Assembly (NCBI GenBank): GCA_946408385.1
Contig: CAMJSB010000004.1
Location: forward strand, 1 to 64,000
From: an uncultured bacterium
GTDB lineage: Bacteria > Patescibacteriota > Gracilibacteria > Absconditabacterales > Absconditicoccaceae
Length of the DNA: 64,000 bases
Direction: 5' to 3'
Under the pieces are notes generated by a model. It saw only the letters and a list, made by a program, of their open reading frames with translations, did no database searches and was not told the DNA's origin. Shown here piece by piece: positions 15,055 to 52,325 of the stretch. How positions within the stretch are numbered: position 1 is the stretch's first letter; every line of letters begins with the position of its first letter. Both the position numbers and the translations under genes were made by a program.

Positions 15055-16551
15055 ATGTGTATGAGCAAAAATATCGAACAATTCAGAACAGAAGTAGATG
15101 ACATTAAAAAAACATTAAGCGAATTAAAAAGTAATGTCGATATTTCTGAAACTGAAAAAAAGACAAAAGCAGAAGCATTAAAAGCACAAGCAGAGACTAC
15201 GAAACAGAAGATACAGAAAGAAATTAACGATTTATCAAATCAATCAGGACAGTGAGTAGAAAGTAAAAAAGAAGAAGCAGAAGCTCTGTTGAATAGTTTT
15301 AATGAAATAATGAGTTTGTATGATTCAATAACGAATACATGAAATAATATTCCAATTCAACAACAAACATTACCAGAGACGGAAGATAAATGAATATTTT
15401 CTAAGGCAAAAGATCGAATTTGAGATCAGTGGTCAGATGTAAAAAGTTGAGATAAATGGAAATCGGAGCCTTGAAAAAACATATTACGTACATTATGATT
15501 TTGACTGACTTGATATGCAGCATACAAATGAATAAAGGCATTATGGAAAAAAATATTCTGAAAGAAAGAAGAGGACGATGAAGATGAAGAAGAGAAAGAA
15601 GAAAAGAAATCAAAAAAGAAGAAAGAAGAGGACGATGAAGATGAAGAAGAGAAAGAAGAAAAGAAATCAAAAAAGAAGAAAGAAGAAGAGGATGACGAAG
15701 AAGAGAAAGAAGAAAAGAAATCAAAAAAGAAGAAAGAGGAGGATGAAGATGACGATGACAAAGATGATGGAGAGAAAAAATCTTTTCGAAGTAAATGGTA
15801 TTGAAAAACTATATGATGAGGGGCAGTATGAGCATGAATTTATTTTTTAGGTAAATGGTTACATTTATGGTGAGATAAAGAAGATAAAACAGAGCAAAAA
15901 ACTCAGGAACAAATTACAACAAAACAGGAAAAAGATGAAGTAAAAGAATCGCAGAAAGAATGAAATGATATTGTAGAGAGCAAAGAAACAGCAAAAGAAT
16001 GATGAGATAAAATATCTGATGAAATGTTTCAACAGTTATTAAAAATGGAAGGTAGCCAAAATCATGTTGCAAAAACTGCAAAATACTTTGGAGAAACGTT
16101 TACTACATGACCTTATGGTCAAGTATATAAACATATAGATGAAAATGGAAATCTATTGAAAACACCGGTTCCTTTTAAAGAATGAGAGAAATTAACCGAA
16201 GAACGATCGAAAAATAATGCAAAAGCATTCTACGATAAAAAAGCAAAAGAATGGAAAAAAATATTAGATGAAAAATGATGTAAATATAACCAGGATATGC
16301 TTGATTCTTTAGTTTGTAAATCAGGATGAACAGCGAAGGCGACAAACAACCTCAAGAATTTTGTTTTATCACATCGAAACAATAAAGATGAAATATTTGA
16401 ATATATGAGCAAGCATGCGATAACTGCTGCATGAAATTGAAAAGTTATGCCTGGACTCGTAAAACGTGCTCTATTCGCTGCAAATTGGTTTAAATGAGAT
16501 AAAAAACCATTTTCTGCATATTCTTATTCAAAATCCAAAAAAGCAGGATAG
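15055..16551 (+). CDS. membrane-anchored protein with charged repeats and C-terminal lysozyme-like (GH24/T4-type) domain
   Basis: C-terminal MFQQLLKMEGSQNHVAKTAKYFGETFTTGPYGQVYKH resembles the T4-lysozyme E...T-x-G catalytic region; paralog at 17743. Confidence 0.65.
15568..15765 (+). repeat. 57-bp tandem minisatellite encoding (KKEEDDEDEEEKEEKKSKKK)n
   Basis: gaagaggacgatgaagatgaagaagagaaagaagaaaagaaatcaaaaaagaagaaa repeated about 3.5 times; unit starts 15568 and 15625. Confidence 0.9.
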
Positions 16552-17742: not shown

Positions 17743-18747
17743 ATGCCTTGAGAAACTATTAAACAGCGTATAGATATTGATAAAAATAATTTCATAGATA
17801 CAAAAGAAATTAATGATTTTATTTTTGATGAAAAATTATGAGAAAAAAATTTAAATGACCTATGAAATTATTTAAATGAGTTGCCTTTATTCAATAATAA
17901 TGAAATTAGATCAGCAATAAAAAATGGTTTTTACAATTCGAAAGAATGGCTAGAAATACAACAAAATATACGAAAAAAAATAAGAAAAAACAATCCATTA
18001 AATAAAAAAGAATTAAGTTTAATATATCTTGATATGTTGTCTGGAAATTCTAGTTTTATACCTACGGTATTATCTAAAGATCAAATAAGATTTGAAGCAA
18101 ATAAACCAATTAATCAGATTTGTGGCTGACAATTAATCCAATTTATTAGAAGAAAATATTTTATGGTTACATATACTGGGGAAGTGTTTGAAAAGTGATG
18201 AAACAAAATATCGGAAGATATGTTCCAACAATTATTAACAATGGAAGGTAGTCAAAATTTTATTGCTAAGATCCACAAAAATAAATTTTGAGAAACTTTT
18301 GTTACTTGACCTTATGGTATGGTATATAAACACATAGATGAAAATGGAAATCTATTGAAAACGCCGATTCCTTTTAAAGAATGAGAGAAATTAACCGAAG
18401 AACGATCGAAAAATAATGCAAAAGCCTATTATGATAAGAGAGCACAAGAGCGGAAAAATTTATTAGACAATAAATGATATGAATATAACCAAGCCCAACT
18501 AGATTCTTTAGTATCTGCATCATGATGAACTACCACATCAGTAGAAAAACTTAAAAATTTTACCCTATCTCATCGAGGTAAACCTATGGAAATCTCTAAG
18601 TTTATTCTCACATTTGCCACGAAATCAGCTTGAAATTGACAAGAACAGCCATGACTTGTAATTCGTAGACAATTTGAATCAAATTGGTTTAAGTGAATAA
18701 AAAGACCTATTTGAGAATATCAAAGAAAATATTATGAAAGAAGGTAA
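17743..18747 (+). CDS. EF-hand plus lysozyme-like protein, paralog of the 15055 product
   Basis: N-terminal EF-hand loop DIDKNNFIDTKE; C-terminal MFQQLLTMEGSQNFIAKIHKNKFGETFVTGPYGMVYKHIDENGNLLKTPIPFKEGEKLTEERSKNNAKAYYDK, near-identical in parts to the 15055 product. Confidence 0.65.
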
Positions 18748-18997: not shown

Positions 18998-21502
18998 ATG
19001 AAATATCATTCACAGTTGATTAGGAAGTATATCACAATTGAAGATACTCCAGAGAATATCGCTAATAATTTGATTTTAAAGACAGTTGAAATCGAGGAAG
19101 TTATTCAACGTAAAATAGACAAACATATCGTAATCTGAAAAGTGATTAGTGCAGTAAATCATCCAGATTCTGATCATATGAGCGTATGTCAGGTGGATTT
19201 ATGACCTAAATGACAATTCCAGATAGTGTGTGGAGCTGCGAACGTTCAATGAGCAAAATATGTAGCAGTGGCTATGGAGTGAGCATTTTTTCCACAAGCA
19301 GGGATCACTATCGCACCTAGAAAATTACGCTGAGTAGATTCAAATGGAATGATATGTTCAAAGAATGAATTATGAATCAATGAAGATACAGATAAACCCC
19401 GAATTTGGGAATTAGATAAAGATTTAGAAGTGAGTGATGAAGATTTGGGAACTCCATTGACTGATAAATTCGAATGGTTGGATAGTTATGTTTTGGATAT
19501 CGATAATAAATGATTGACAAATCGTCCTGATTTGACTGGACATTTCGGAGTAGCTTGGGAATTCAATTCAATGTATAAACCTCAATGAAAAATCTGATTT
19601 AGTGCATTGCCAAAATATCAACAAGATTTCGAAACTACCAATATGTTAGATTTACTCGAGCATGGAGAAAAGAAAGGGAAGAAATCTGTAATTTGTGAAA
19701 CTCAGTGATTGAATAACTATATATTACTTGAGCTTAATAACGTAGAAGTGAAGGATTCAGATTTTTATATGCGTTTGCAGAATGCTGATTTGGGAAATGG
19801 AAGCGTGAATAATTGGGTAGATTTCTCTAATATTTTTATGAATATTTCATGAAATCCAGTTCATTTCTTCGATGCAGACAAAATCGAGTGAAATATTCAT
19901 GTTCGTGATGCTCATGAATGAGAAAAATTTGTAGATTTGTTTGAAAAAGAGCATACTCTAATTCCACAAGATATCGTAATCGCTGATGATAAAAAAGCAC
20001 TTTGTTTGTGAGGAATAATGTGAGGTTTGAATAGTTGAGTAACAGCTGAAACCAAAAATATTTTGGTAGAAATAGCAAACTTCGACCCAGTGAGAATTCG
20101 TAAAACTGGAGTTAGGCTATGATTACGTTCAGATTCAGAACTTAGAAATGAAAAACATATCGCTCCTACATATTCATTATATGCATTGTTATTATTCTTG
20201 GATGAATTGAAATATTATGCAAAAGATTTGTGAAATTTTGAAATCTGAGGAGTAAGTTCATATGTTAAACCTTGACTTCATCCAGTTCAACCAACTACAA
20301 TTACAGTGGATTGGGATGATATGAATCAATTCATATTTGGAAAAGATGATAAAAAACCTGACTTCCAAGAAAGAGCTTCTGAAATTCTTAGAAACTTGTG
20401 ATTCAAGGTAGAATGAAATCAAGTAACTGTTCCATTATGGAGAGGACCAGATGATATTACTATTCCTGCTGATATTTCAGAAGAAGTAGCTAGAATTCGA
20501 GGTTATGAACAGATAAAACTAACTGCACCACTTACTCAAATTCAGAGTCAGAGTTTTATTTGAAATACTGAAGTAATTCGTATAATAGAAGAAACTTTGG
20601 TAGAGAAATGTCGCTTCGATCAATGAGAAAATTATCCATGGGTAAGTGAAAAAATGGTGCAACCATTTGGAAAAACGAGAAAAGATTTCATCACATTGAC
20701 TAATCCAGTAAATCCTGAATGTCCATTGCTTCGTAATACATTCTTGTATCAATTTTTACAGGTGGCTTCAAAAAATTCAAAATTCTTTGATACAATTCGT
20801 TATTTCGATACTGGAAAAGTATGGACAAAGAATGAACCAAATAATGAGATTTCTCCAGAATTTGCTGCTGCACATTTGGATGAGCAATTACATGCTGCAT
20901 TCTTTATGTACAAAAAATCTATCAATTCGTGGGATGAAGATACATTACTAGAAGCTAAATCAGTAATTGATGAGATTATGCATGATTATGAGCTGAATGG
21001 AAAGATTACTTATGAAGCTACAGATTTACCATATTTTCATCCAAAAAAGCAAGGTAAAATCTTATTCAATAAACAAGAAATCTGAGTAATCTGAACTATT
21101 CATCCAACGATTTTGAAAGCTAATAAGTTACCAGAAAATGCAAATTTAACATTTGTAGAAATATCGCTTGAAAAGATTAAAGAGCTTAGAAGTCAGGCAA
21201 CTGAAAAAACATATATTTACGAAACTATGCAGGATCAGATTTTATGGAGAGATTTGAGTTTCGTAATAGATGAAAAATCTGATTTTTCTAAAGTTTTGTC
21301 AGCACTTCGTAAGATAGAGGAAGTGAAGGATATCCGTGTATTTGATGTTTATCAATGAGAGAATTTGCCTGCAGGTAAGAAGTCGATTTCATTACAGATA
21401 AAAATTATGGGAGATGGAAATATGACAAGTGAGCAGATTGGAGCTATAATGCAGAAAGCGATTGATGCGGTAAGTAAGGTTGGAGGTGAATTGAGAGGAT
21501 AA
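18998..21502 (+). CDS. pheT: phenylalanyl-tRNA synthetase beta subunit
   Basis: VISAVNHPDSDHMSVCQVDLG, IVCGAANVQGAKYVAVAMEGA, LTNRPDLTGHFGVAWEF, LRDLSFVID-type C-terminal anticodon-binding domain. Confidence 0.95.
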
Positions 21503-21519
21503 TTAAGTTAAAAGAAATA

Positions 21520-21551
21520 TAAAAAGCTGTCCGTAAGGGTAGCTTTTTTTG
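21520..21551 (+). terminator. rho-independent terminator after pheT
   Basis: aaaaagctgtccgtaagggtagcttttttt. Confidence 0.75.
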
Positions 21552-21586
21552 TTTGCTTTTTTTGAAAATATTGGTATAAGGAAATA

Positions 21587-21755
21587 GCTTAGGTTAATAT
21601 ATTTAAATCTTACGAGACAAGAGGACATTTTGCGATATCTTCAGCAATTTGTCTTCTTGTAAGATTATTGTGTATTGGCCTAAGCAACCGTGAAGTATCG
21701 TAAAGTGTCCTTTTTATTACGATAGTTCAGGTTATGCTTTATGACCTGTTTTTTT
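21587..21755 (+). ncRNA. putative structured RNA (nested stems, pseudoknot) ending in an intrinsic terminator, directly upstream of the R-M gene
   Basis: GCTTAGG(21587)/CCTAAGC(21679); ATCTTAC(21607)/GTAAGAT(21659); TATCGTAA(21696)/TTACGATA(21717); possible AGGACA(21622)/TGTCCT(21706) pseudoknot; CAGGTTATgcttTATGACCTG-T8 terminator. Confidence 0.6.
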
Positions 21756-21758
21756 ATT

Positions 21759-24074
21759 ATGGATAGATTCGATATTATTCAAAAAATATGAAGAGAGTAT
21801 TTTGATAAAAATACAGAAAAATGAGAATTTAGTTATCAACAAGCTCTTAAAAAAAAGTGAAAGAATATAGAAAAATATTTTGAATCATGAGAAAAACAAC
21901 ATAAATATTTAGATATTAGATTTGCAGATAAATGACTTTCAATTTTAGTAGAAACTAAAGATAATTTTGATAAACGAAATAAAGTAGAAATTTATAAACA
22001 ACTTCAAGATTACGTTAGGTTAGAAAAAGAATATACTTGAAATAAAATAATTGCGATTATTGCGAACACACAAGATGATAGAATTTTAGTGCGATATTGA
22101 GAAAATATAGATGATGAAAATGTAAAAGTAATGGAAAGTTTGAAAACTTTTGAAGAATATAAAAATTTCTATTTCTGAACAAAAAATGATAAATCAAAAG
22201 TTATAAAAAGTACTTACGAACTAAACGAACTTTTGCATGAATATTGAATAAAAGAAACTATTAGAAGTCAGTTCGTTTGAACATGTCTTTTGGCTTTGAA
22301 ACACGGATTACAATATGAGAATTTACCAACAAAATCTATTATTTGATGAATACAAGATATATTATCGCATTTATTAAGCGATGATTTAAGAAAAGCCGAG
22401 AAACTAACAATATTAAATAATAAAGTTATAGAATCCCAAGATGTAAGAGTATTGAAAAAAGAAGAATTTCAACATATTTTGAATAAAATTAATGATGAAA
22501 TTGTACCTTATATAAACGATAAAAGCACAGCAGGACAAGATTTACTAAATTTATTCTTTACTACATTTAATAAATATGTAGGTAAGGCCGATAGAAACCA
22601 AGCATTCACACCAGACCATATCGTTCATTTTATGTGTAAAGTAATATGAATTAATAGAAATTCAAGAGTTTTAGATCCTTGTTGCTGAAGTTGAGCATTT
22701 TTGGTAAGAGCAATGGTTGAAGCGATGAATGATTGTCAAACAGATAAAGAAAGAGAAGAAGTAAAAAAGAAACAAATATATTGAATAGAATATGAAGAAA
22801 CGGCATTTTGATTATCAACTACAAATATGTTGATTCACTGAGATTGAAATTCAAATATTGTTCAATGAAGCTGTTTTGATAAATCAGAATTTATAGAAGA
22901 TGCAAAAATAGATAGAGTTCTGATGAATCCGCCTTATAATGCACAAAAGAAACATTGTAAGCCAGAATATGTGGCAACTTGGAAAGCAAACACAAAAGAA
23001 GATCCATCAAAATGATTACACTATGTATATGAAATAGCAAAAAAAGTAAAAACATGAAAATTAGCTGTGCTTTTACCTATGGCATGTGCTATTGGTTCAA
23101 GTAGCGATATAAAATCATTTAAAGAAAAAATGTTGAATGAACATACACTTGATGCTGTTTTTTCTTTACCAAGTGAAACATTTTATCCTTGAGCAAATGC
23201 TGTACCATGTTGTATGATATTTACATTAGGAACTAGACATATAAATTCACCTGTGAAATGAACATTCTTTTGATATTTTAAAGATGATTGATTTACCAAA
23301 AAGAAGAATTTGTGAAGGATAGAGAAAACAGATGAAAATTGAATTTGAATACGAAATAAGATAGAACAAGAACGACTAAATTTATATTATAATAGAATAT
23401 CAAAACCTTGACTTTCAGTAGTAAAAGAAGTGACAGCTGATGACGAGTGGCTAGCTGAAGCATACATGGAAACTGATTATTCGCAATTAACAGAAAAAGA
23501 TTTTCAAAAAGCAATTAATAATTATCTAGCATATTTAATTAAAAATAGTGATATTCAAGAACCAAAAACGGAAGTATTTGCAAATAAAAAATGGCAACGA
23601 TTTCCATTACAAAAAAAATCCAATAATAATTGAATCTTTGATATTAAAAAATGTAAGTGTAATTGTGCTTGAGATTTGGAAGAATGAAATGATATTATGT
23701 ATATATGAGCAAAAAAAGATGATAATTGATTTATGAAAATGGTAAAAAAAGAAGAAAAATTAATAACAAAATGAAATTGTATTATTTTTATTTGTGATTG
23801 AGAATGATCTGTTTGATATTCAAATTACATGGATAGAGATTTTATTTGATCAACTACACTTTCTGCATGATATAATGATAATTTAAATCAAAAGAATTGA
23901 ATATTCCTCGTATCTTTACTTGATTTAGAAAGGAAAAAATATTCTTATTGAAGAAAATATTGAACAAACTTATCTACAGCAAAAATTAAACTTCCAGTTG
24001 ATAAAAATTGAGAACCAGATCGAGAATTTATGGAAAATTATATCAAAAATTTACCATATTGAGATAGAATATAA
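21759..24074 (+). CDS. single-polypeptide restriction-modification enzyme (N6-adenine methylase with N-terminal nuclease-like region and C-terminal specificity region)
   Basis: VLDPCCGSGAFLVRAM and VLMNPPYNAQ methylase motifs; N-terminal LDIRFADKGLSILVETK PD-(D/E)xK-like; C-terminal target-recognition-like domain; 772 codons with TGA=Gly. Confidence 0.8.
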
Positions 24075-24143
24075 AATTTCTGTTTTTGTAACAAAATTAA
24101 AAATCATTCGTAAGAAAAAAGAGCAATAATTGTTCTTTTTTAA

Positions 24144-24845
24144 TTATTTCCAAGATTTTGGTTTATGAACGGTTCAAACCTGATTAGGAAGTAATGAAAC
24201 TTTAAGATTTTCTTCCGTTATATTCTTAACTTCATCACATACTTTTTCCATAGTGTGAGCCTTAGCTCATGGTGGCATTAATAGTATAAATTCTTTTTTA
24301 TTTCATTTAGTGTGCTTTTTTACAGACATAATAGATGGGGAAATATCACTATCTCAACTAATAACAAATGCTTTATCATATACATCTAGCAATCAATCCT
24401 CCAATATATGTAATGCAACATTTACATCAGTTCTTTTTTCTTCAAAGTTTTTATATTCTATTCTATCAGGAAGAAAATATTTCTGCCAAGATACAGGTAA
24501 CTTACGTATAATATTTTTATATACAAATTTTTGAATATTGTTTTTACGATTTACGAATTTTTTAGTTACTTCTTGATATTTTCAGAGGATAGTTTGAATT
24601 CATTTAAAATTTAATGCTTGTACATATGCTCTATGTCTATTTTCTCAGTCTTTATCTGGGAAAAAATATGCAGTAAAATATTCTACTTTAACAATTTTTT
24701 CATTATGTCATATAAATTGTCTAGCGAGTTGTTTATAATCTAATCGATAATATTTTTTACCATATAATTTTTTCATATGATGAAAAAAATTGAAACCATC
24801 GATATATACAGCGACTCTAACTGATCATTTTGATTTTTTCGTCAT
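24144..24845 (-). CDS. NYN (PIN-like) domain ribonuclease family protein
   Basis: VRVAVYIDGFNFFHHM, KGIQTILGKY, KRTDVNVALHILEDGLLDVYDKAFVISWDSDISPSI. Confidence 0.85.
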
Positions 24846-24860
24846 CAATGATATTTTTTC

Positions 24861-24950
24861 TAAAAAAAAGAACCCCCTCGCCGTTAAAGAAGAGGGGTGG
24901 ATAAGTAATAGAAGCTATCCGTAGATAACAGCACCCTTATCTCTTGGTGT
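24861..24950 (-). ncRNA. putative structured leader/small RNA with intrinsic terminator upstream of the NYN gene
   Basis: Minus strand: GATAAG..GTTATC-TACG-GATAGC..CTTATC hairpin, then ACCCCTC..GAGGGGGTT hairpin plus T8, 22 nt before the NYN ATG. Confidence 0.55.
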
Positions 24951-24956
24951 GTTAAC

Positions 24957-24984
24957 AGTATATACATTTTCTATAAAAAGTCAA
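24957..24984 (-). promoter_or_regulatory. sigma70-like promoter for the NYN leader RNA
   Basis: Minus strand TTGACT - 16 nt - TATACT. Confidence 0.55.
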
Positions 24985-25120
24985 ATTTTTGTCAAGTTAT
25001 TTTTTAGATAATATTTTACATTTAATTTTTTTGTTTTATTATATCTTTAAAAAAATAATTTGTTTTTTTGAAATAATTTTATATAGAATTATTTATCTTT
25101 ATATCCTAAAAATATCACTC

Positions 25121-25303
25121 ATGGAAAAAGAAAAGAAAGTAATATTAGAAGCTATGAAAAAGGCTTGAGAACCTGTTAATGCTTGAAAAGTAGCAGAACT
25201 TACATGATTAGATAGAAAAGTCGTTGATAAAGTTTTTGCAGAATTGAAGAAAGAATGAGCAATTGTTTCTCCAGTTAGATGTAAATGGGAACCTGCTAAA
25301 TAG
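25121..25303 (+). CDS. small winged-helix protein
   Basis: MEKEKKVILEAMKKAGEPVNAGKVAELTGLDRKVVDKVFAELKKEGAIVSPVRCKWEPAK. Confidence 0.75.
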
Positions 25304-25341
25304 CTTGAAGAATCTGATTTATTTTTTTATTATCATTAATT

Positions 25342-29545: not shown

Positions 29546-29597
29546 AAAATTTGCATAATTTTAAAGTTTTGATTATAATTTGACTGAGGTGTTTTAT
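29546..29597 (+). promoter_or_regulatory. promoter copy 1 (TTGCAT-17-TATAAT plus TGAGGTGTTTTAT)
   Basis: 36-bp exact match to 34835-34870, then TGAGGTGTTTTAT at identical spacing. Confidence 0.8.
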
Positions 29598-29613
29598 TGT
29601 GAGAGTGATAGAA

Positions 29614-32600
29614 ATGGTGATTAGGAAAAAATCAAGAGAAGATTTAGACAATCAGGTAAAATGATTTTTTGAATATGCAAAAAAAATATGAAAAATTTCT
29701 GAAGATAAAGCAGAGGAAATATTATGAATACTATCAGAAAATGACAAATTATCGGATAAAAATAGTATTAGGGATAGCTTATCTTGAAAAATATCATCTG
29801 AGGAGTTCGATAAGATATATTGAGAATATGAAAATTACCAAAAGATGAATTTTATGGAAATAAAAAAATATATAAAAGAAATTAAATTGTTGCCGGAAGA
29901 AGCTAAGCCTTTCATAAATGAGATTGTTAAAATTTTAATTCAAGAAAATTGAAGTATTGAAAATTTAAAAGAAGTGAACATAAATGAAGAAGATATAGAA
30001 TCCATAAGAGAAAATTTAAAATGAAATATTTTAGCTCTTAAAAGAGCAATTTGAGATAAAAAAAATCTATCTCCAAAATTAATAAATATAGTTATTAATT
30101 GAAAAAAAGAAAATATAGAAGCTTTTGCAAAAGTGTGAATTAAAACGACGTCAGATTTTTTAAAATTAGAAAAACTTATTTGTAAAGGAAATATTATAGC
30201 CGAAAATATAGAAGCACTAAGAAAAGCTTGAATAAAAGAGTCTGCAGATTTTGAGAAATTGAATTACATTATTCTAACATGAAAGGCCAGAAATATAGAA
30301 TTATTAAGTAATTGTGGAATACATAAAGCTGAAGATTTTTTAACTCTAACGGAATTAATAGAGTACTATGATACTGATGCCATGGAATGAAAAATAAAAT
30401 TATTAAATACTTATTGAATTGATGTTACTAAAAATTTTCTTGATTGGTGGGATGTTATCCTTAGATGAAAAAAAGAAAATATAGAAGCATTATGGAACGC
30501 ATGAATAAGAAAGGAAGACGAATTTATAAAGTTGCAAAGTTTAATATCTAATTTTCGAACTAGAGCAGAAATCATAGAAGCATTTGGAAAAATATGAATA
30601 AAAACAGCAGATGAATTTATAAAATTACAATATTTGATTTGTAATTATGATACTAAAGCCGAAAATATAGAAGTATTTGGAAAGCTGTGAATAAAAACAG
30701 CAGATGAATTAGCAAAAATGGATGAACTGATTTGAAGTTATAGAATTAGAGATAGAGCAGAAGTTTTAGAAGCATTTGGAAAAGTATGAATAAAAACAGC
30801 AGATGAACTTATAAAATTGAAGGATATAATTTGAGATTATTGTACAAGAGTAGACAATATAGAATCATTGTGAAAAATTTGAGTAAATACAGCAGATGAA
30901 TTTCTGAAGTTGGAAGATATAATTCGTAATTATCGGGCTAGAGCAGAAATTTTAGAAGCATTTGGGAAGGCATGAATAAAAACAGCAGATGAACTCATAA
31001 AATTGAAGGATATAATTTGTAATAATAGAGCAAAAGTAGAAAATATAGAAGCGTTTGGAAAAGTATGAATAAAAACAGCAGATTATTTTTTGAAATTAGA
31101 AAATCTGATTATTAATTATAATACAAGACCAGAAATTATAGAAGCATTTGGAGAAGTGTGAATAAAAACAGCAGATGATTTTATAAAATTGAAAAATATA
31201 ATTTGTGATTATAGAACAATAGTAAAAAATGTGGAAGCATTGTGAAAAATTTGAGTAAAAACGGCGGATGGTTTTTGTACATTAAAAAGGTTTTGTACAA
31301 GTAAAAATATTGATTTGATTATGAAAAAATTTGACCAAGCTGGTATCTTATCATCAAAAGATCGTATAAAAATTTTAAAATACATGAGTGAAGAAAATAC
31401 TGATAGTATGTTTGTGGCATTGGATAAAATAGTAAGAAAAAGATGAGAAGATTTTGTCAAAATTTTTGGAGAAAATATAAGTGAATTATTAAATATTCTC
31501 AGAGAATTTTGATGATGAGAGGATGCGATACTTTTATTATATTATAAATGATTTTCAGTAGATGATATAAAAAAATATATATCAAATTGTTGAATTTGTT
31601 GTACTAATCTAGAAAGTTTAGAATTTCTTCTTGAAAAATTTGATATTAATATAGATGAGTTGATTTATTTAAAAGACAGTTTTAATTATGCAAAAAAAGA
31701 GAATTTAGAAGTAATCGTTAAGAAATATGAGGATATCACAGTAGAACAATTAAAATCATTGTGAAATGTAATTTCATATTCAAAAAAAGAAAACTTGGAA
31801 GTGGTTTTCAAAAAATATCCAAATATTGGAATTAATGATTTAATAACATTAGAGTCCATACTTTCAGATTCAGATAAGGAAATTTTGGAAGTGGTTTTCA
31901 AAAAATACCCAAATATTGGAATTAATGATTTAGTACCATTAGACTTAATATTTTCAAACTCAAAGAAAGAGAATTTAGAAGTAATCATTAAGAAATATGA
32001 GGATATCACAGTAGAACAATTAAAATCACTGTGAAATATAGTTTCATATTCAAAAAAAGAAAACTTGGAAGTGGTTTTCAAAAAATATCCAAATATTGAG
32101 ATTAATGATTTAATATCATTAGATTTAATACTTTCAAATTCAGATAAGGAAACTTTGGAAATAGTTTTCAAAAAATACCCAAATATTGAGATTAATGATA
32201 TAATAACATTAGAGTCCATACTTTCAAATTCAGATAAGGAAAATTTAGAAGTAATTTTCAACTATTATAAAAATATTAGTATAGAAGATTTGAAATCCTT
32301 GGAAGGTGTAATTAAAGGTAAACATGGGAATCTTAAATTAATTTTGAATCATTATAAGAACACAGATATTAATGAATTAGTGTCATTGTGAAATGTAATT
32401 TTTAATTCAAAAGAAGAAAACTTAGGTCTTATTTTTAATTCTTATCCTAATATTAAAGCCGAAGATTTAAAACTTTTATGTGATATATTAAGAAATCTTT
32501 ATTTTAAAGACATTTTCCAATGTTTTAGTCCTCTTGAAATTGAAGATATAAAGCAATATGAGAAAGTTTTTAAGAGTTCGATATATTTACCTGAAAATAC

Positions 32601-34770
32601 TGTATTTAAAGAAGAAAATCACAAATGATATTTAAAATATATACAACAAATTATTGAAATGTGAGGTGATGATTATCTATTTGAGGTAAATAAGAGAGAA
32701 ATTGTACTCGATATATTGAAATTGCCTTTTCAAGATATTAAAAACTATTTATATCATCTATCTGATTTTTGTGGAAATAAAGGTTATTCATACAAACAAT
32801 TTTTAAATTGTTTTGATTGAAAATCCATAAATTCAAAAGCATTGAGATTTGTATCAAAGTGATTTGATATTTCTTGAGCTAAAGATACAGAAGTAGAAAT
32901 CTTAAATGATTTTATGAATTCATTATATCCAAGATTAAATGTGAAATTTAGTGAGATAGAAACAGAAAAAATCTTATGATTTATAGAAAAAATTTGATGA
33001 ATCAATAAGTGATATTCTATACTTATTCTAACAGTTGAAAAATTATATAGAGATGGCATAAAAGAAAAGGATTTTAATTCTGAATTGTGTAAAAGAATAG
33101 ATGAGTATAAAAGAATTATTGATATGTACCCTGAAGATAAAATTCCTGAATGACTGAAAATTAGTACATGAATAGAATTTGAAATGACCAACTATTTTTT
33201 AAATTGGTATAAAGAAACAACTTGAAATGACTATTATGATGTAGTAAATAAAATTGTAGATAAAGCTAAAATTGGAATTGAAAGAGAAGCTGCATATGAA
33301 TTCGCGACAAAACCAGCTACAAATCCCATGATTACATTGTTGGAAATACACTTATTACAAGAGTTAAACTTGTTAGATATTAATGATATGCAAAAACTTT
33401 GAAATATTAAAGCTACAAATTATAAGAGTAGAAATTGAACATGATATCATTTGAATATTTGATCTGATTCAGATATGTGAATAGATGATAATATTCAATT
33501 TATACAAAATCTATCTACAATTATGCCACGATCTTGAATTAGCAATGGAGAAAATATAGGTAGAATTAATAGGTATTCTAATTTAAATTCTAAGACATCA
33601 AAATTTTCTGTATTTCCTAATTCAGAGTCAAAAAAATATGTAGAATTACGTACATATAGTGTAGATGATGTAGAGCTTTTTGAAAAGAATGTATTGTTTA
33701 ATACATATGCCATAATGTGAAGTCAAGCTCAGAAAAAAGTTTCTAAAATGCATTCTATAGATTTTTTCCATTCAAAAATTATTAACAGTTCCATAAATAT
33801 ATCCATAAATAATTCTGATGATCTAATGCATTTGCTAGAAGAAAAACAGTTATTTCTTGATAATCAAGATCTAAAATCAAAGAAAATAGCATCTGAATTT
33901 ATGTTTATGCAAATTAGTGTATTAAGAGCAATAGATTATTATAATAAAAATTTTATTGATAATGAATTATTTGGTCAAAATCTATTATCGAATTTATCAG
34001 ATCCATGGAAAAATTATTTCATTGATTTTTCGCTTTCTGATAAAAGAGAGTCAATTTGATTTGAAGATATGTGACAATCTTCATTGGTTGTAAAAAAATA
34101 TGCAAAAAATTTAATTAAAACATTTAATGTACAAGAGTATATAGAAAAAGATACCCCATTCTCGGATGAAGAAACTAAAAAAATATTAAAAGAAAGTAAT
34201 AACTCAGGTATCGATGAAAAGCGAATTCCATACATAACTAGGTGGTTGAATAAAAAATTATTATGGGAAATTTTAAGTAAATGAAAAGATACACAAGAAT
34301 TGCAAGATGTAATTAATAATAAATTATCAAATATTGATAGAATAAAAAACTATCTTAGACAAGAAACATCTAATGAAAAAATAGATAGACAATATTTGTA
34401 TAATTATTTCAAAACTAAAATGTCTTTGGAAAATTATAACCTTTATTATTCAATAAATACGGAATTTGTTAATAGAATTATAAATCTTAATAATTTTTTC
34501 TTAAAAAAGGATGATGCTAATGCAAATGGTGTATTACAAACTACAATTTTAAATTGAAATAAAGATGAAGAGCCTGATATCTCGAAATCTAGTGTATTTG
34601 AAACTTGATATATGAGAGAATGATACAATTATTATCAATGATGAAGTGAAAACATGCTTTTACATAGTGTTCAAAAAATAGCTTTAAATTATATGAAAAA
34701 TGTAAAAAATATATTAAATACAGATTACCCAACGGATACCAAAAATCTTAGATTGGATAATGTTGCATAA
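29614..34770 (+). CDS. giant (1718 aa) helical-repeat protein with C-terminal amidoligase-like domain
   Basis: Single frame with TGA=Gly; arrays of [ENIEAFGKVGIKTADEFIKLKDIICNYRTRA] and [ENLEVVFKKYPNIGINDLITLESILSNSDK]; C-terminal GIEFEMT...EREAAYEFATKP...GTGYHLNIGSD...RINRY...KYVELRTYS. Confidence 0.75.
30560..31270 (+). repeat. ~93-bp tandem protein-coding repeats, about 8 copies
   Basis: gaagcatttggaaaa(g/a)tatgaataaaaacagcagatgaa... recurring. Confidence 0.85.
31694..32233 (+). repeat. 90-bp repeats arranged as two ~270-bp higher-order copies
   Basis: gaaaacttggaagtggttttcaaaaaatatccaaatattg(g/a)(a/g)attaatgattta; block at 31694 recurs at ~31964. Confidence 0.85.
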
Positions 34771-50999: not shown

Positions 51000-52325
51000 A
51001 TGTTAACTGCATTCTCGATATTCTGGATATTAAACGTATTTTATCAAATCATATCTACATTTTTTGTATATTGAATTCATTTATGTAATCCCTCAGATCC
51101 AGCATTAATTCGTGAATGAATATGGATATTGTTCCTATTTGTAACTCTGATTTTATGATATAAGAAATTTAAACCATATTGGAAAAGGCGGAAGAAAGTT
51201 TGGATAGTGTTTATAATCCTTATTTTAGTTTCAGTATTTTTCTCATGGTTAAAAGATGTTTCATGGAGTAATATGTTTATATGAATCAAATACTGATTTT
51301 GGTGGACTTTTATTTTGATATCCGCGAGTTTCTTTGGATATGTATACTCAGAAAAACGAAAAAAATCCAATCTGATTCAATTTCTCCCACGAATCTTAAT
51401 TTGAATAGTTTGAGCAGGATTTTTATGGCAATGAGCCAAATTGTTGCGACCAAATTTTTTCTATTCTTTGGGATACTGAGGCTTAAATGATTACGCATTT
51501 AATATAAATCCACCAATATATTATCTAACTTGATTTGGATGAACATTACGTCGACAATGATTCTTTTCATGACCAAATAATTATTGATATTTCTTGGTTG
51601 CATTCCTTCCATTCGTTTGGCGATTCTTTACGAATAAAATCAAAAAAAATGAAAATTTAGTATGATCAATTATAGCACTAACAATTTGGATGGCATGAAT
51701 GGCGGCTACATTATCACGTGCAGTTTTAGTATGAGCGGTTGTTGTGTTTTTAGTTTTTTATCGGAAGGAATTAAAATCTAAAAAGCGATTATTACTCTGA
51801 TGATGAATATGAATTCTTACTATTCTAGTGGGATTGTCAGTCCGAAAACGAGAATCGACAGTTTGACATATTGCAAGTAAATTTGAGACAATCCCAGAAG
51901 TAATCTCTGCTCCAATATGACATGGACTTGGAAGTTCATGACCAGGAGTTCATTACAAATGAAAATACCTTCCAGAGAATTATTTCTTACAAATAATGCT
52001 TGATATTTGAACTATTTGATTCCTGTTCCGAGCTTTTTCAATGTTATATTTATTTTTAATCCAGCATAAAGTGGTGTGATTAAATAAATGAAAGCTGACC
52101 ATTGAAGAGGAATATTATCTTCAAGTATTACATAAATTACAAATCTGATTTTTTGCATTACTTATAATGTGATTATTCTTACATGTATTTGAGGATAGTA
52201 TGGTGAATTATCTATTCTTTACGATATATGGAATAGTTCTAGGAGGCTTGAGTACAAAGTTGAAAGGGGAGTTGTCTCGAAAAGAGGTGTTGATACAAAA
52301 TAAAAAACTGCAATTAAAAATCTAA
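51000..52325 (+). CDS. polytopic membrane protein, O-antigen ligase (Wzy/WaaL)-like
   Basis: ~10 hydrophobic segments; GIGILTILVGLSVRKRESTVGHIASKFETIPEVISAPIGHGLGSSGPG...PENYFLQIMLDIGTIGFLFRAF typical of Wzy_C proteins. Confidence 0.8.

Follow-up and report, generated by a model that had tools for sequence, protein, structure and literature searches.

A conserved pseudoknotted RNA with attenuator anatomy in front of restriction-modification genes of Absconditabacteria

What is the function of a structured RNA that ends three nucleotides before the start codon of a restriction-modification (R-M) gene? This question is raised by positions 21587–21755 of a 64,000-nucleotide stretch of DNA from an uncultured member of the Absconditabacteria (the window), for which the original prediction, made from the sequence alone, had proposed a pseudoknotted RNA followed by an intrinsic terminator, possibly a riboswitch or attenuator of the R-M gene. 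An R-M system entering a new cell is dangerous, restriction having to wait for methylation, and the known solutions to this establishment problem are C proteins and antisense RNAs. Absconditabacteria recode UGA and are hard to study genetically; the window was read with genetic code 25 (TGA = Gly).

The RNA and its locus

The stems, the loop complementarity and the terminator of the original prediction were all found by direct reading of 21587–21755 (+). Folding, covariation and a terminator scan, together with the flanking genes, give the following features:

18998–21502 (+), pheT (TIGR00472, E = 2.6e-166)
21521–21548 (+), terminator of pheT (terminator scan)
21553–21580 (+), promoter-like TTGCTT-16-TATAAG (putative, direct reading)
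21587–21685 (+), domain 1, a long bulged hairpin (folding and covariation)
21587–21593/21679–21685 (+), outer stem GCTTAGG/CCTAAGC (direct reading)
21587–21602/21670–21685 (+), P1 of domain 1
21607–21613/21659–21665 (+), P2 of domain 1, ATCTTAC/GTAAGAT (direct reading)
21614–21618 (+), 5′ bulge GAGAC of domain 1
21619–21627/21650–21658 (+), P3 of domain 1
21622–21627 (+), AGGACA of the P3 5′ strand, with the hp2 loop as alternative partner (pseudoknot; covariation)
21630–21633/21644–21647 (+), P4 of domain 1, with loop GATATCTTCA
21686–21733 (+), second hairpin (hp2), the antiterminator (constrained folding, eight loci)
21686–21694/21726–21733 (+), hp2 outer arms AACCgTGAA and TTCAGGTT (constrained folding)
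21696–21703/21717–21724 (+), hp2 inner stem TATCGTAA and TTACGATA (direct reading)
21706–21711 (+), hp2 loop TGTCCT, complementary to AGGACA (direct reading)
21728–21755 (+), intrinsic terminator, hairpin CAGGTTATG/TATGACCTG at 21728–21748 and T7 at 21749–21755 (terminator scan, constrained folding)
21759–24074 (+), Type IIG restriction enzyme-methyltransferase, 771 aa (N6_Mtase PF02384, E = 1.7e-31; PADLOC REase_MTase_IIG, E = 9.6e-56)

Since pheT has its own terminator, the upstream transcription unit is closed before the RNA starts. The promoter-like sequence, of which the −35 hexamer is weak (3/6 matches) and which a consensus scan did not list, would place the transcription start near 21586–21588, at the 5′ end of P1; its 16-nt spacing recurs at the same position in three other copies of the RNA (L002, L037 and L090, see below). 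It is the sole predicted promoter for the IIG gene and lies upstream of the RNA. The minimum free energy of 21580–21765 is −65.2 kcal/mol as compared to −34.4 ± 3.8 kcal/mol in 200 dinucleotide shuffles (z = −8.07, 0/200 as good), and the terminator scan finds two sites in 500 bases, that of the RNA and that of pheT, versus 0.1 in shuffles. That the RNA fits none of tmRNA, RNase P, SRP or T-box, until now a judgement by eye, agrees with a covariance search of the whole window against Rfam 15, which at the gathering cut-off yielded two tRNAs only and no match for the RNA; at E up to 5 there were only chance matches, none near the cut-off (6S RNA and AbiF RNA RF03085 included).

The start of the IIG gene agrees with that of a homologue in L083 (MERFSMIERVG versus MDRFDIIQKIG). 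No Shine-Dalgarno motif precedes any of 36 long open reading frames of the window (background 6%), the starts being only AT-rich, so that an ATG following a terminator immediately is nothing unusual here, and transcriptional attenuation is more likely than control by hiding a ribosome-binding site.

Copies, covariation and downstream genes

Covariance searches brought the number of copies to ten, the window and nine others, all from one family of the Absconditabacteria. Two of these, L002 (82%) and L003 (80%, with the 3′ part replaced), were detected at the DNA level among 99 relatives; L034, L035, L036, L037, L040 and L042 were recovered with a covariance model of domain 1 (R1), and L090 with a model built from eight copies (R3). 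Searches of the whole class (353 genomes) and of a sample of the phylum (342 genomes), in which about nine candidates were scored per genome, gave no convincing member outside the family, where weak members may be missed because of this low number of candidates. One of the RNA-bearing genomes (L056, identical with G002) is named Candidatus Absconditabacteria. A pattern search of genome contigs returned three true matches, from the same genomes as G002, G006 and G016, whereas none of ten matches in viral contigs fitted the covariance model.

Several candidates were rejected: G576/L165 (31 bits, outside the family) is a plain terminator hairpin without hp2, G620 (23.6 bits, outside the family) aligns poorly, pattern matches in G291 and G335 occur at the rate of the control, and matches on the opposite strand are echoes of the near-palindrome. 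A score near 30 bits alone thus proves nothing. L090 (35.7 bits) and L040 (45.4 bits) were accepted because promoter, P1, pseudoknot and the motif CGTAAR-YGYC also fit; L090 has in addition hp2 and the terminator, L040 is without a clear terminator. L091 (22.6 bits), which adjoins another IIG gene and points away from it, is only a possible divergent copy. Two copies have peculiarities of their own. L035 (about 1604–1670, −) has a tandem duplication of the RNA's 5′ half, with an outer copy (GCTTAGACTAACACA) that fits the P1 3′ strand better than the inner one does. In L042 (1636–1695) a second hairpin (ATGGTAGATTT/AAATCTACCAT) extends across the terminator as far as the start codon of a type III mod gene.

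The original prediction would have fallen had homologous intergenic regions lacked covarying substitutions. In the alignment of all ten copies 25 of 36 pairs are changed on both sides, and 95.4% of the cells are paired as compared to 71.7% after shuffling and 38–46% in slid registers. With eight copies the values are 23/36 pairs (0/500 shuffles as high), 95.3%, 75.0% and 41–47%. Changes on both sides affect 14/17 pairs of P1, 5/6 of P2 and 4/9 of P3 in eight sequences; P4 is nearly invariant, so that covariation gives no test there. It should be noted that fitting the alignments to the model biases them in favour of the structure, but the difference from the controls is very large, and P1 has another sequence in nearly every copy. 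A fairer test is the pseudoknot because it is absent from the covariance model: its pairs are 87% standard, with 10 double-change cells and a covariation score of 0.51 versus 0.31 in shuffles (0/500 as high). Strand and loop match better within a copy than when a strand is combined with loops from the others (permutation p = 5e-5), and the pairing often runs past 8 pairs into the conserved bulge. A conserved pseudoknotted RNA, as originally predicted, is therefore borne out, and we regard the structure as practically certain. It represents a new, previously undescribed family of structured RNAs.

In six of the ten copies an R-M gene lies directly downstream on the same strand, and in five of these six its ATG follows the T run by 3–5 nt. 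The genes that follow are:

Window, L002, L037: Type IIG
L035/L056, L042/L061: type III-like mod, then a ResIII protein
L090: N4/N6 methylase and a BglII-like endonuclease
L034, L040 (both in G005): putative surface proteins with a common motif LTAxxWDxLID
L036: hypothetical membrane protein
L003 (3′-truncated): beside ftsH and an AAA/DUF4143 gene

The 11 searched genomes, of about 1 Mb, have about 47 methylase-domain matches, which at about one gene per kb is well below 1% of the genes, so that six of ten copies before R-M genes is far above chance. L090, which the covariance model detected with no information on gene context, is followed by the gene of an R-M methylase. Beyond the one gene first noted, the association takes in three kinds of R-M system (IIG three times, III-like twice, BglII-like once), but it is not exclusive: four of ten copies precede no R-M gene, and most R-M genes in the searched genomes are without the RNA. 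The proteins downstream of L034 and L040, without a Pfam match above the cut-off, are possibly surface-like proteins under the same RNA, to judge from their sequences.

The distribution of the copies bears on whether the RNA might be a stand-alone small RNA (6S-like or antisense-like) that acts in trans and was mobilized with R-M genes, these being expressed by leak-through or from another promoter. An RNA that ends in a terminator and leaks some transcription into the gene would have the same anatomy, the long bulged hairpin resembles 6S RNA in outline, L034 and L003 are without R-M genes, and the possible copy L091 runs away from one. It is nevertheless found in only 7 of 49 genomes of the family, close relatives being without it; neither 6S nor any other Rfam family matches, and the few nucleotides between T run and ATG leave no room for another promoter. 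We consider such a small RNA improbable and have set the 6S assignment aside.

Terminator and antiterminator

The segment 21686–21694 can pair with 21726–21733, a pairing missed in the original prediction, which takes in the 5′ arm of the terminator. The terminator and the extended hp2 both need this arm and are therefore mutually exclusive. An alternative partner for the terminator's 5′ arm, a segment just after P1, is present in each of the eight copies whose 3′ end is complete, and pairing with it extends hp2; the upstream arm tracks the sequence of the terminator arm, though the arms differ between copies. The energies (antiterminator/terminator, kcal/mol), calculated without pseudoknots or kinetics, are given below with the number of 300 shuffles of the upstream part that were as good in energy and shared arm and, for four copies, with the energies of P3 and of the pseudoknot duplex:

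Window: −16.1/−15.8; 0/300; P3/pseudoknot −15.2/−12.1
L002: −15.9/−12.4; 1/300; P3/pseudoknot −11.2/−12.2
L034: −11.2/−9.6; 24/300
L035: −15.6/−15.8; 6/300; P3/pseudoknot −14.6/−13.8
L036: −13.0/−15.2; 9/300
L037: −19.6/−19.3; 6/300
L042: −16.8/−19.8; 1/300; P3/pseudoknot −14.4/−17.8
L090: −16.6/−16.3; 7/300

The two states are thus 0.2–3.5 kcal/mol apart, and the energies of P3 and the pseudoknot duplex are close in every copy. The shuffle test is weak for L034, and for two to three of the eight copies overall. Such near-equality in energy of two alternatives is required of an expression platform, and an exclusive terminator and antiterminator directly before an open reading frame is kept in all eight copies; the RNA therefore has the anatomy of a switch. 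Of the proposal that a riboswitch or attenuator controls the R-M gene, this anatomy and the linkage to R-M genes have stood.

We propose, with a probability of about 0.7, that the RNA is a leader of about 169 nt which gates transcription of the R-M gene as a riboswitch-like terminator/antiterminator attenuator. Transcription would begin at the foot of P1, and domain 1 would fold first, with P3 closed. The 5′ strand of P3 could then stay in P3 or pair with the hp2 loop, and the CAGGTT segment could close hp2 as antiterminator or form the terminator. The OFF state would be P3 closed plus terminator, and the ON state pseudoknot plus full hp2, with read-through into the adjacent ATG. The full hp2 (about 16–18 pairs) is approximately long enough to reach P3 along P1 and P2 (about 23 pairs), and this reach would link one choice to the other. 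A putative signal, received by domain 1 through its conserved bulge AAGARAAA and P4 loop, would shift the balance; a likely purpose is to keep the restriction enzyme low, e.g., during establishment in a new host. A phage-sensing role, also part of the original prediction, is speculation.

Opening of P3 could also be imagined as the work of a ribosome translating UUG-CGR-UAU... in P4, as in a leader-peptide attenuator. Several copies have an AGAGG tract before the UUG, and a short open reading frame (MRYLxQFVFL) is common to three close copies. The start is UUA in L042, though, neither length nor residues are conserved, and Shine-Dalgarno motifs are not in use in the window (see above), which makes a leader peptide hardly credible; it was set aside.

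Known systems and mobility

Like riboswitches and protein- or tRNA-dependent attenuators, the RNA lies in a 5′ leader, with a structured sensor domain, exclusive and nearly equal antiterminator and terminator, and a terminator just before the open reading frame. It differs from them in belonging to no Rfam class, in targeting R-M rather than metabolism, and in that a long kissing pseudoknot joins a sensor strand to the antiterminator loop. Judged by analogy of anatomy, the nearest analogue is RCd22 (AbiF RNA, RF03085), in which a promoter, a structured RNA and a terminator precede a phage-defence gene, abiF, that is reached by read-through, and in which premature termination and direct inhibition by the RNA act together (PMC12373285). 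The structure of RCd22 consists, by contrast, of two small hairpin motifs, the protein is another, and an explicit antiterminator is present only in the window RNA. Type III toxin-antitoxin RNAs (ToxI, CptI, TenpI) likewise combine a pseudoknotted RNA and a terminator before an effector gene, but with short tandem repeats and a ToxN-like nuclease, whereas here one fold goes with unrelated proteins.

These parallels lend some interest to a different reading, in which the terminated RNA would be the end product and would keep the restriction enzyme in check by binding it, with the terminator providing for a large excess of RNA over protein. ToxI/ToxN and RCd22/AbiF show the same succession of promoter, structured RNA, terminator and defence gene, and the latter is a precedent for combining both modes of action (PMC12373285). 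Beyond the methylase fold, though, the downstream proteins (IIG, type III Mod, BglII-like pair) are unrelated, and one RNA fold binding all of them is therefore unlikely. They are R-M methylases and nucleases, with no toxin of the ToxN, AbiQ, CptN or AbiF type among them; the window RNA has no tandem repeats and does not match RF03085, and the balanced antiterminator of all eight copies would be superfluous. We hold an RNA inhibitor to be unlikely, and type III toxin-antitoxin was set aside.

Like the C proteins and the antisense RNAs of EcoRI and Eco29kI, the proposed attenuator would limit expression of the restriction enzyme; unlike them it is a putative cis leader on the sense strand. A review of R-M regulation treats antisense RNAs and reverse promoters, and neither attenuation nor hairpins were found to be mentioned there (PMC3874152); nor was a description of an attenuator or riboswitch for R-M genes found in open-licence PMC articles. 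The RNA may be a cis-acting switch reserved for R-M, the first of its class, and a mobile module joined to at least three unrelated kinds, with a pseudoknot coupled to the antiterminator, a restriction enzyme transcribed only on a signal (e.g., new-host establishment or infection state) and possibly a terminated RNA acting in trans on nascent leaders. This wider proposal is tentative, and we would give it somewhat less than even odds. If true, unrelated R-M systems would have in common an RNA attenuator as a novel answer to the establishment problem; defence genes would be seen to possess a regulatory module that is portable, and the RNA would join the few regulatory RNAs described for Absconditabacteria. 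The two competing helix pairs give direct predictions for reporter assays.

R-M genes and the RNA seem to move together, since orthologous sites in close relatives hold other cargo. In G006 a pheT 95% identical to that of the window is followed by an Mrr-type endonuclease without the RNA (L157, 926–1447) and then by the same nitroreductase, whereas the pheT-nitroreductase interval of the window (21503–25341) holds the IIG R-M gene and a gene for an NYN-domain protein. This interval is therefore a variable defence site, with RNA plus IIG as cargo. The RNA plus IIG of G006 itself follows an O-antigen-ligase-like gene, of which the homologue in the window (51000–52325) is without an adjoining RNA. 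Three copies lie near large serine recombinases, the recombinase gene overlapping a tRNA gene in L056 and L061 (tRNA-Gly and tRNA-His). Such islands with their two overlapping tRNA genes, the same RNA at different chromosomal sites and the near-palindromic P1 could point to an element acting as DNA, i.e., a recombination site or folded single-stranded DNA (attC-like) at the edge of a mobile defence cassette. To a DNA site, though, the pseudoknot, the terminator/antiterminator pairings and the promoter spacing would be useless; the R-M genes, where present, are always on the 3′ side, and no recombinase was found closer than 5 kb to L002 or L037. A DNA element is accordingly very improbable, and attC was set aside.

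Some other genes of the window deserve mention. The NYN-domain protein (24144–24848, −) adjoins the R-M gene, matches the PADLOC candidate defence family HEC-09 (E = 6e-42) and is probably part of the same defence cargo. Upstream of pheT, 15055–16551 and 17743–18747 (+) encode two paralogous proteins with a common C-terminal part (EMFQQLL..EGSQN..AK..FGETF.TGPYG), which by eye look lysozyme-like. A very long repetitive protein (29551–34770, +; about 1739 aa) has tandem helical repeats (EAFGKVGIKTADEFIKL; ENLEVIVKKYEDITVEQLKSL).
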